From the NCBI GenBank assembly GCA_947463915.1, contig CANHVO010000009.1, forward strand, positions 1 to 52,102: a stretch of 52,102 bases of DNA. Direction: 5' to 3'. Source of the stretch: Planctomycetaceae bacterium (GTDB lineage Bacteria > Planctomycetota > Planctomycetia > Pirellulales > Pirellulaceae). Of the stretch, positions 35,335 to 50,110 are shown piece after piece (within the stretch, counting starts at the first letter, position 1; each line of letters starts with the position of its first letter). The translations under genes and the position numbers were made by a program. The notes beneath the pieces are model-generated. The model saw only the letters and a list, made by a program, of their open reading frames with translations, was not told the DNA's origin and ran no database searches.

Positions 35335-35860
35335 GGGCTACCTCCAATAGGGAGCAGCTCGGTGCGCACAGCAATAGAAACACCCTAAGAACCAAGAATG
35401 TGGTATCGCGCGAAATCAGATAGATAGAATAGAACTGAATTCGAGCGTTAGCATTCCTGCACTCAGCTCGAATCAAAATTGCGTGTTCATCGAAACAGCT
35501 CAACGATGATGCACTAGCTTGTTCCGTAGAACTGCTTTCCATGATTGCAAGAACATCTTGCGATCGGCCGACGAGGTTAGCTGACGGGCTGGGATCGGAA
35601 TAATCCTGGCGTCGCAATCGACACCTAAGCCCCTGTGCGTACCATTGAACCGAAATTCAACGCCGCACTATTGGTTCCCCCGCACGATTCTTTGGTGTTT
35701 ACCATCGAATCGACTAGGCTGTGCACATAAGAATAACTCTACACGCTATTTGGCGTTCGACAAGTCGAGCGCTGAGCAACGTGAACGTAAGCCGCTAGGC
35801 AGCAATGAGTTGCGATATTTTGGAATTCTTGTTTTTCGGCAACGCAATTGCCGCATCTTT

Positions 35861-47593: not shown

Positions 47594-48427
47594 CTAAGGG
47601 TGCAGAAACAAATAATGTGTTTCGACCTCCTTTAAGATCGAGGGGATTGAGATTTTTTGCTTCACAAATTCTCGCATGGATGGCGTTAGCGCGTATTTGC
47701 ACTTTTCTATACCCTCGATCGAATAGAGCCCCTGGAAGAAGGATTTCCTTGCCTCAATTTCTGCCGTGCCTTGCGATGACTCCAGGTCTAACATGTCATA
47801 TTGCGTCTGAACGAGTTTTTCTAACGCACTGACCTCCGTTGTGATCGATTCCAAAATGGCGATCCGAATATCTTGTTCCGAAGGGGAATTTGGCTGTACC
47901 CATTTCCCCGTCCATTCGCGACGCTGCTGCAAAACACGCTTCATGATTTTCAACATGCGAGGGTCACTGCTGATTGCGACGTGGTCAAACTCATGACGGA
48001 GCAATCTGGATTCCCAAGGGGATGCTGGCTGAAAGTCTGATTTCAGACATATCTTATGTTCGATCTTGATTTTGGGCTGGTCCATCCAGGCCTCAATCTT
48101 GGACTGCCAAGTATTGGTCTCCGGATCGTAACCGAGTGTTTGATGTCGATACTTGAAATCGTAGGCGACGACGAATTTGAACAGGGTTAACGCTTGTTTG
48201 CCGGCCTTTTTCACGAGATCATCATCTACGACAATCCTAACATTCCCTCGATCGATTAACCGAACAAACTCCCCAGGCGCTTCGGCCACCCACGGTAGCG
48301 GTTTGAGCGTCTGGGCTGCCACTGGGGGTGAGATCAATAGCACTAAGCTCAAGGTCGTGAGAAGCAGCCGGCAAAGATAATCTCGGAGAAAGTTCGCTTT
48401 CTTCATGGTCGGATTGTTCTTGTTCAC
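47594..48427 (-). CDS. Secreted protein with HExxH-like motif (possible metalloprotease)
   Basis: A 277-aa exported protein with a signal peptide (about 18-38: CRLLLTTLSLVLLISPPVAA). The body has LLRHEFDHVAI (His145, Glu146, His149), the pattern of zincin metalloproteases. A third zinc ligand is not obvious; conserved-looking acidic residues follow (SITTEVSALE). DUF922-type secreted Zn proteases are a possible relative, judged by eye. The GTG at 48427 has GGAG 5 nt upstream, partly created by a tandem repeat; ATG 48406 is the alternative. Activity is inference. Confidence 0.7.
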   Translation of the reverse strand: MNKNNPTMKKANFLRDYLCRLLLTTLSLVLLISPPVAAQTLKPLPWVAEAPGEFVRLIDRGNVRIVVDDDLVKKAGKQALTLFKFVVAYDFKYRHQTLGYDPETNTWQSKIEAWMDQPKIKIEHKICLKSDFQPASPWESRLLRHEFDHVAISSDPRMLKIMKRVLQQRREWTGKWVQPNSPSEQDIRIAILESITTEVSALEKLVQTQYDMLDLESSQGTAEIEARKSFFQGLYSIEGIEKCKYALTPSMREFVKQKISIPSILKEVETHYLFLHP

Positions 48428-48463
48428 TCGTACTCCATCGGTAGCGAAACTCGTACTCCATCG

Positions 48464-48774
48464 GTAGCGAAACTCGTCAAGAGTTTCGGTTGTTAGGCGA
48501 GCGGCAAGCTAAAACATAGCTTAGCACGACGCGCAAGCTAGTGAATTGGATAGCAAATTCACTAGCTTGCGCTTTTTGAAGTTGCACACTTGCGATTTCG
48601 TAGCAGAATTCGTGAGAATTCTGGCCTCGCCTTAATTGCAAAATGTCTGAATTCTCACGAATTCAGCTACATTTCTCAATACAGTGCAACTTCAAAACTT
48701 GCGCGTCGTGCTCGGAATAAAGGCCCCGTCGCTCGTCCTACAGAATCGCCGAAAGTCTTGACGACTTTCGCTAC
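48464..48774. repeat. Family-3 nested palindromic cluster (311 bp)
   Basis: Several palindromes sit inside one another. Outermost: GTAGCGAAACTCGTCAAGAG (48464) matches inverted 48749-48774 (ending TTTCGCTAC). Inside: GCACGACGCGCAAG (48524-48537) with its complement 48698-48711; a 15-bp stem 48533-48547/48556-48570; GAAGTTGCAC (48578-48587) with 48684-48693; and TAGCAGAATTCGTGAGAATTC (48601-48621) with 48649-48669. TTAGGCGAGCGG also occurs (48493). No gene fits within. A 23-bp unit is tandemly duplicated just left of it. Confidence 0.85.
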
Positions 48775-48784
48775 GTAATCAATT

Positions 48785-48815
48785 GTAGCCGCAGACAATT
48801 GTGTCCGCAGACTAC
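48785..48815. repeat. GTAGCCGCAGACAATTGTG-type palindrome at a stop codon
   Basis: An imperfect palindrome centred on CAATTG (GTAGCCGCAGACAATTGTG then TCCGCAGACTAC). Its right GTAG edge, read on the minus strand, contains the TAG stop of the sulfatase gene. Confidence 0.7.
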
Positions 48816-50110
48816 AGATTCGGACCCCACCAGCTATCCAATTTCTTTCTTAGCTCCAACACAGTCTCGCTCTGAATGCCTGCCAAGTTGCTAACTTCCG
48901 TCGGATCGGAATCCAATTGATAAAGTTCCGTTTCCGCTTTGGATTCAACCGAGACATTTGGAACAATCAACTTCTTGTTGCCCTCGATCATCCAACGCCA
49001 TCGCAAACTTTTCTCAGGTCGGTCCAAATCATTGGAATTGTGGGTGAAGCACTCGCCAAAAATCGCCTTTCGCGATGCAACCGCTTTTTCATCCAGCAGG
49101 TTAATCCCAGGCAACGATGCGTCGACCGCTAGTCCTAGGGCGCTACGTAAGGTCGGAAGCAAGTCGATCGATTGCGCCAATTCGTCGGACATTTTCGCTG
49201 CAATTCTCTTGGGCCAATGAATCATGATGGGGGTTCTGACTCCGCCATCGTACTGCGATTGTTTGGACTTCGGCGCATAACGAGGATTGTCTGGACTCTG
49301 TATCCAACCGTTGTCCGCAATGTAAACCACGATCGTGTTTTCTAGCTGTCCTCGTTCCTTGAGACCATCCATCAATTGTCCTACGGATTCGTCAAACCAC
49401 TCGATCATGGCCCAGTATCTCGCGATGTGAATCGAATCGGTCTTGACTTTGTACTTTTCTAACAATCGGTCTGGTGGCGTATGCGGATCGTGGGGCAGCA
49501 AAGGTGCGTACCAGACCATGAAAGGGCTCTTGGCCGCGACACACTTGTCCATGAAGGAAGTGATAGGCTCCATCGTTTTGCGTCCGATGATTAGCCCATC
49601 ATCGCCATGCCGACCACCTTTAGTCATGCCGTCGGTGAAACCGCCACGTGTGTAATCGCCTTGCCACCATTTCCCTGTTTGCAAGGATTGATAACCATTT
49701 TCTTTGAGAAGTCTGGGAAGAGTAACACATGCCTCCATGTGTTTGTTCATTCGTTCGCGACCTTCCTGAAAGAGTGGGGAGCGATTGAACTCGGCGTTAG
49801 TCATTCCTGCTGGAATGGGTGGATCGTTTGAGGTGATTTTGTGTTGATGCGGATACTTTCCCGTGATGATGCTGGCCAGACTCGGGCAGCATAGGCTACT
49901 GGTCACGTATCCCCGTCGAAAAGTAAGACCGCTTTTTGCCAAGCGATCGATGTTTGGCGTTTGAACAACCTTGTGCCCCATAAAGCCGTAGTCGGTCCAG
50001 GCGTGGTCGTCAGAGATGATCATCACAACGTTGGGTCGATCGTCAGCGTTGCCGAATGAGCTTCCCAAGCATAACAGACAAAAGGCAAATACTTGGGTAA
50101 GCGTTTTCAT
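48812..50110 (-). CDS. Secreted sulfatase-family protein with atypical active-site motif
   Basis: A 432-aa type-I sulfatase relative. It has a signal peptide (about 1-22), metal-binding PNVVMIISDDHAW (Asp34, Asp35), TPNIDRLAKSGLTF, the active-site region SSLCCPSLASIITGKYPH (71-88), TGKWWQGDY, WYAPLLPHDPH and VVYIADNG, QYDGGVRTPIMIHWP near the C-terminus. Canonical sulfatases read C-x-P-S-R, where Cys becomes formylglycine; here Cys74 is followed by Cys-Pro-Ser-Leu, so the Arg is missing. Substrate unknown; sulfated polysaccharides are the usual targets in planctomycetes. No Shine-Dalgarno is clear at 50110. An FGE-like gene lies 1.8 kb upstream on the same strand. Confidence 0.93.
   Translation of the reverse strand: MKTLTQVFAFCLLCLGSSFGNADDRPNVVMIISDDHAWTDYGFMGHKVVQTPNIDRLAKSGLTFRRGYVTSSLCCPSLASIITGKYPHQHKITSNDPPIPAGMTNAEFNRSPLFQEGRERMNKHMEACVTLPRLLKENGYQSLQTGKWWQGDYTRGGFTDGMTKGGRHGDDGLIIGRKTMEPITSFMDKCVAAKSPFMVWYAPLLPHDPHTPPDRLLEKYKVKTDSIHIARYWAMIEWFDESVGQLMDGLKERGQLENTIVVYIADNGWIQSPDNPRYAPKSKQSQYDGGVRTPIMIHWPKRIAAKMSDELAQSIDLLPTLRSALGLAVDASLPGINLLDEKAVASRKAIFGECFTHNSNDLDRPEKSLRWRWMIEGNKKLIVPNVSVESKAETELYQLDSDPTEVSNLAGIQSETVLELRKKLDSWWGPNL

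Follow-up and report, generated by a model that had tools for sequence, protein, structure and literature searches.

Palindromes nested within palindromes in a planctomycete genome, a probable stack of selfish elements that target repeated palindromes

Results

A stack of mobile-element layers in one intergenic region

A cluster of nested palindromes between two genes of a planctomycete is a stack of mobile-element layers, in which a REP dimer (A) holds an element (BC) in its loop, an arm of BC is interrupted by a 124-bp MITE (E), and E contains a further REP pair (D) as a fixed part. Very probably, the stack was built by selfish elements that target REPs, E being the non-autonomous partner of a family of insertion sequences (IS) encoding a DDE transposase. 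The cluster lies in a window (the whole stretch of DNA analyzed) of 52,102 nucleotides from a draft genome of 7.6 Mb in 618 contigs. It is flanked by a gene that is sulfatase-like on a reading of the sequence alone, not by a family search (50110-48812, minus strand), and by a gene encoding a 277-aa protein (48427-47594, minus strand). Among named sequences, those closest to the sulfatase-like protein come from Planctomycetota and Pirellula MAGs, with Verrucomicrobiota and others ranking lower.

A first-pass annotation of this DNA had listed five inverted pairs between 48464 and 48774, all of which were recovered in an inverted-repeat check (length and percent match in brackets). These are, from the outside, 48464-48489/48749-48774 (26 nt, 92%), the GCACGACGCGCAAG pair at 48523-48537/48698-48712 (15 nt, 100%), 48574-48587/48684-48697 (14 nt, 100%), and the two halves of D (22 nt, 95%), with a side stem at 48531-48547/48556-48572 (17 nt, 100%). 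A sixth, weaker pair absent from that list (48491-48503/48730-48742, 77%) lies between the first and the second. The predicted DNA fold of 48440-48830 is exceptionally stable, at -110.3 kcal/mol versus -51.7 +/- 4.2 for 100 shuffled sequences, none of which folded as low (z = -13.9). The palindrome near 48785 is a separate small hairpin (CAATTGT..ACAATTG, 48780-48801), which was not seen by eye in the orthologous sequence of the closest sampled relative, G023. On the other side, a 23-bp tandem duplication at 48426-48471 (ACTCGTACTCCATCGGTAGCGAA twice, by eye) adjoins the outermost REP, the first bases of which it repeats.

Not all of these pairs are layers. When E and one 8-bp copy of its target are taken out of the window, a single palindrome, C, is restored, and the side stem and the GCACGACGCGCAAG pair, previously counted as separate layers, are thus two parts of one hairpin that is split by the 124-bp element. 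The features of the stack are listed in Table 1.

Table 1. Layers of the stack and their positions in the window
Feature	Positions	Strand	Basis
A, left half, GTAG-tagged REP (GTAGCGAAACTCGTCAAGAGTTTCG), outermost	48464..48488	+	half-site search, own genome
BC element, ~116 bp without E and one target copy	48493..48740	.	B-arm census; G023 ortholog
B arms (BC = B arms, linkers and central C palindrome)	48493-48505 and 48728-48740
C, left arm TAGCACGACGCGCAAGCTAGTGAAT; left side of GCACGACGCGCAAG pair and of side stem	48522..48546	+	half-site search
C, right arm, proximal part, cut from distal part (48698-48712) by E	48559..48572	-	pairs, duplication, ortholog
Left 8-bp target copy (CTTGCGCT), one mismatch to right copy	48566..48573	.
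E, 124-bp MITE, terminal inverted repeats TTTTGAAGTTGCAC / GTGCAACTTCAAAA	48574..48697	+	own-genome copies; duplication
D, inverted pair of GTAG-tagged REPs inside E	48600..48670 (48600-48621 / 48649-48670)	.
Right 8-bp target copy (CTTGCGCG)	48698..48705	.
C, right arm, distal part (CTTGCGCGTCGTGCT)	48698..48712	-	inverted pair; uninterrupted in G023
A, right half, inverted REP (CGAAAGTCTTGACGACTTTCGCTAC), same REP dimer (REPIN)	48750..48774	-	pair detection and half-site search

E is a multicopy MITE with a built-in REP pair

E displays the features of a MITE. It is short (124 bp, with 14-bp ends), non-coding, and multicopy, with 34 further copies (one cut by a contig end) in the own-genome loci that were fetched, i.e. 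at least 35 including the window, which is a lower bound with 40 of 627 candidates scored. It is flanked by a target duplication of constant length (8 bp), and there are candidate parental IS with the same ends: those of a complete IS present in the genus, in genome G011 (TTTTGAAGTTGCGC), match E at 13/14 positions, and those of IS in G023 have TTTTGAAGTTGCACACTT in common with it. D is found inside E in all 34 other copies read (again counting the one cut by a contig end) and is consequently a fixed part of E. REPs of the D type also occur outside E in the same genome (L065, L030, and others), and G028, a member of another family, has 21 half-sites. Other non-autonomous elements of 191-327 bp (L224, L226, L228, L229, L231, L234, and L253) have the ends and the target of E around different interiors.

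E recognizes a sequence in the arm of C

To characterize the targets, we scored 42 paired elements with E-type ends in the own-genome loci that had been fetched, one of 43 rows having been removed as a false pair. Of these elements, 31 have the length of E and 11 other lengths. The 8-bp flanks differ by at most one mismatch in 30/42 and by at most two in 34/42, versus 0.5% of random pairs at the latter cut-off; the other eight elements show three or more mismatches. A site resembling the C arm (at least 14/25) is present at 35/42 elements, compared with 74 of 48,000 window positions, some of the 35 being a sister palindrome of GTAACCCGACGCGTAAGCGAGG type (L020, L039, L227). Among the seven elements scoring below 14, two (L012 and L045) are within C but have a shifted end, as judged by eye, and L017:812, L024, L026, L029, and L235 cannot be placed in C with certainty. 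Relative to the arm, E can point either way (13 versus 9 of 22).

The first-pass annotation had suggested that loops are preferred targets, which finds no support in the case of E. A partner arm is present within 70 nt of 20/30 occupied arms (scoring at least 17/25) and 37/50 unoccupied arms (at least 20/25, with 9 of the 59 background arms excluded because a transposon end lay nearby), with a Fisher p value of 0.61. Because partnered arms are hit no more often than single ones, a palindrome is unnecessary for targeting by E, and we rejected hairpin-dependent targeting. The common factor of E targets is the arm sequence around the 8-bp CGCGCAAG, not a loop, and it is hit with or without a partner arm.

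A related IS family shares the ends and the target of E

The left end of an IS is matched at seven places in G023, of which six are at ends of contigs. All 12 of the G023 IS ends that were read (seven left and five right) lie in C arms. Together with the 35/42 elements above, this corresponds to the hallmark of REP-targeting IS, a fixed insertion point in a repeated palindrome. The complete related IS in G011 (1,505 bp, with TTTTGAAGTTGCGC ends) is flanked by an 8-bp duplication, CGCGTCAG, in a sister palindrome. Its 474-aa frame contains the DDE_Tnp_1 domain (PF01609, 63 bits versus a cut-off of 23, E = 4.1e-17), as is characteristic of the IS4 family. Its best NCBIfam scores were 87.3 of 150 for IS701 and 59.3 of 115 for IS4_1, both below the curated cut-offs, and we therefore file it in neither IS4 nor IS701. 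No solved structure resembles this transposase by sequence, and Pfam gave no match for a partial transposase from G009.

A right IS end in G023 encodes a C terminus like that of the G011 transposase (66% identity over 35 aa), and similar C termini are found at five places in that genome. In the genome that contains the window, no relative of the G011 transposase was found, which means that the helper of E is absent there, lost, or unassembled. L271 and L274, from G035 (another family of the order), have the same TTTTGAAGTTGCGC ends and carry a CGACGCGCAAG-type palindrome inside.

The locus in the closest sampled relative lacks E

The initial proposal was that small palindromes had repeatedly inserted into the loops of earlier ones. 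It was to be checked by looking for intermediates with fewer layers in close relatives and for layers occurring as separate units, and it would be at odds with relatives that carry the whole cluster as one unit, with no layer occurring alone. The compared genomes are mostly draft assemblies. The two flanking genes were found at one junction in none of the searched loci (L087-L128) except the window's own; L097 and L099 have the 277-aa gene beside only a distant sulfatase (24-25% identical). The G023 locus was therefore pieced together from the ends of two contigs. Contig C29 stops within the left half of A and, in the orientation of the window, displays A, the B arms, an uninterrupted C, and A, with no E. 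Contig C117, coming from the other gene, displays A, a B arm, and the left arm of C, followed at CGCGCAAG by a different element with the ends of E, which starts with TTTTGAAGTTGCACACTTTTCG. The two ends have 58 identical bases in common, which suggests two G023 alleles. The simplest reading of these sequences is a single locus that exists in the sampled population as two alleles, one empty and one occupied. From the two insertion positions, the window and G023 would have been hit independently, in different arms.

An intermediate with fewer layers thus exists, in that E is missing from a G023 locus that retains A and BC. The cluster is not carried as one unit, and each of its units can be found away from the others at other places. 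Layered insertion holds up for two steps, namely E, which has both the 8-bp duplication and an empty site, and BC into A. The same cannot be said of four or five separate events, which we rejected on account of the near-fixed length of the B arms with C and the presence of D inside other copies of E.

The outer layers A and BC

A is highly repeated, with 652 half-sites in the genome at up to two mismatches and none for a reversed-pattern control. Both A and D have the properties of GTAG-tagged REP dimers or REPINs (a GTAG end, a stem-loop, inverted pairs, and many copies). The A loop is 19 nt in 37/40 distinct own-genome pairs from the fetched loci; the others are 18, 32, and, in the window, 261 nt. 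The locus census behind these lengths includes loci chosen for holding E, and its figures for C are biased towards occupied sites. The same 19-nt loop was found in 10/10 A pairs in an own-genome sample of 20 stretches (400,000 bases, ~5% of the genome), which is non-random, 19 of the stretches being contig starts. The window has the usual pairing of a C-variant with a G-variant half, and the orientation of the loop relative to the arms is kept in 36/37 pairs with distinct arms. A was found at 2/14 Y1_Tnp loci (12/14 over the Pfam cut-off, 41 kb fetched), versus ~1.8 expected from its density, and RAYT genes beside A were not taken as evidence of an association.

The C arm TAGCACGACGCGCAAGCTAGTGAAT has 276 half-sites in the genome at up to three mismatches, again with none for the reversed-pattern control. 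For both C and A, the 30 loci examined were the first among the roughly 100 places listed. C ends with TAGCAC/GTGCTA, and its CGTC is internal instead of terminal as in CGTC-tagged REPs. B arms were paired (at most two mismatches) in 23 own-genome rows, two of which are the same place and none of which is the window's own copy. Twenty of these enclose a palindrome (12 C, six D only, and two of the sister type), and the other three, which enclose none, resemble chance matches. Spacing between the B arms is 87-91 nt in 9/13 of the C-only or D-only rows (five C and four D), the rest holding extra sequence. Because the B arms flank either C or D at a near-fixed distance, BC looks like one element.

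BC appears to have come to lie in the loop of A. Neither a target duplication of BC in A nor, among the relatives compared, one with A and without BC was found. In a second G023 locus, L257, BC is enclosed by A, with E absent, and in L276 A is followed by TTAG, a C arm, an IS, and then the contig end.

Opposite orientation of the C loop in the window and G023

The 14-nt loop of C (48545-48558 in the window) is inverted relative to that of G023 (L112), with 13/14 identical positions when inverted and 9/14 in direct comparison. The linkers of C outside the loop keep their orientation. Among 31 C palindromes listed from this genome and its relatives, 15 were readable in both loop and linkers, and their loops are oriented 7 versus 8 relative to the linkers, numbers that are small and come from loose matching of short, nearly symmetric loops. 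As far as such sequences go, this is suggestive of arm-mediated loop inversion, a possible hairpin-mediated sign.

Discussion

The history that we propose begins with the REP dimer A, which would have sat between the sulfatase-like gene and its neighbor. The ~116-bp BC would then have come to lie in the loop of A, a step read from the present arrangement, as an empty site was not seen. Next, E would have inserted in the right arm of C and duplicated CTTGCGCG, probably once the lineage had diverged from that of its closest sampled relative; that it did insert is established by the 8-bp duplication together with the empty site of the relative. A DDE IS family with nearly the same ends would select CGCGCAAG in C arms, the shared ends and target being directly visible, and may have mobilized E in trans. 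Because the target is widespread in palindromic repeats across the genome, insertions are probably harmless, and palindromes would accumulate inside palindromes, with the large fold as a by-product of stacking. Selfish stacking is favored by the presence of E in at least 35 places, its 8-bp flanks in the same genome, the G023 empty site, and the IS ends in C arms. Against it count the missing own-genome transposase, the mismatch in the left target copy, the eight elements with poorly matching flanks, the 7/42 low scorers, the missing duplication and empty site for BC, and the mostly draft state of the compared assemblies, the two G023 alleles being deduced from contig ends.

Palindromes lie inside palindromes repeatedly in this genome, and the order of nesting varies. 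Further own-genome stacks, in other orders, are present at L316, L328, L369:13901-14260, and L374:19541-19820. Such arrangements could suggest that the loops themselves, as hairpins or cruciforms, attract insertions. Palindromes are indeed found in the loops of others in several orders, with A around BC (the window and L257), C around a BD element (L056/L374), and C around another inverted element as judged by eye (L328, with A inside, and L070, without A). In print, section 7 of PMC3733652 describes REP dimers within palindromes, and parts of PMC1525189 place ISPsy8 and ISRm22 at the symmetry axis of REPs. However, E and its relatives enter an arm at one 8-bp sequence, and the presence of a partner arm makes no detectable difference; moreover, the A loops are overwhelmingly plain, both in the fetched loci and in the 400-kb sample. 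We therefore regard loop attraction as unlikely. A broader version, in which each family provides the landing site for the next in its loops and arms and hairpins extrude in vivo, would also explain the inversion of the C loop. We consider such a self-feeding system doubtful, if possible. Loop inversion, if it occurs, would open hairpin formation in vivo to testing.

Two other explanations fare considerably worse than selfish stacking. An assembly chimera of repeats as the source of the inner layers comes to mind with a draft genome of 618 contigs and with repeats that coincide with contig ends in G023. The target duplication at the exact border of E speaks against this, as do the G023 contig ends, which reproduce the outer layers with locus-specific linkers beside the same two genes, and we find a chimera very improbable. 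It is hardly credible that the cluster spreads or is kept in its entirety as a single composite element, or as a structured RNA or DNA signal. Such a unit would fit the strong overall fold and the recurrence of BC with E as a partial combination (e.g. L009 and L011), but individual layers are found apart, the same locus in G023 holds the outer ones without E, and E lies in either arm. No other A-BC-E stack was present among the 104 own-genome matches listed (40 of 627 candidates scored). In the window scan, no Rfam family reached the gathering threshold in the nested region, and we rejected a structured RNA at the site, the sole window match at that threshold being a riboswitch elsewhere. This is a c-di-AMP (ydaO/yuaA) riboswitch at 35552-35730 on the minus strand (48.7 bits versus a cut-off of 38).

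The components of the stack resemble known systems. REPs are established targets of IS that enter them at a fixed position, with ISRm22, ISPsy8, ISPpu9/10, and IS1397 among those named by Tobes and Pareja (2006, PMC1525189), where ISRm22 is an IS4-family element with nine copies. Like these, the copies described here share one fixed point of insertion within a repeated palindrome. In contrast to what that source describes, the cut is in an arm, with an 8-bp duplication, in a planctomycete host, and most of the own-genome copies read are non-autonomous 124-bp MITEs. GTAG-tagged REPs have been reported from Planctomycetes, with several REP families in R. baltica, and REP dimers have been reported inside palindromes (portions of PMC3733652). 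A and D are like these REPs in their GTAG end, short stem-loop, and inverted pairing, but differ in that neither could be linked to a particular RAYT gene. BC differs from the GTAG-tagged REPs of the same source (Di Nocera 2013, PMC3733652) in having neither a terminal GTAG nor a terminal CGTC. Another parallel is QMITE2 of Coxiella, which, according to parts of PMC10969869, is a MITE with a GTAG REP that is hit by IS1111. Both cases combine a MITE containing a REP with a REP-targeting IS. However, whereas in Coxiella the REP within the MITE receives the IS, here a MITE with an internal REP dimer enters another palindrome. A literature search with partial coverage (titles and the starts of abstracts) returned no description of this stack and no such REP-targeting IS or MITE for planctomycetes.

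The stack is a clear case of insertion layers that can be removed one after another, and it comes with a relative whose site is empty and with another hit in the C palindrome. It also points to a family of REP-targeting IS and MITEs in the planctomycete phylum, which may explain why assemblies of such genomes break at intergenic palindromes.
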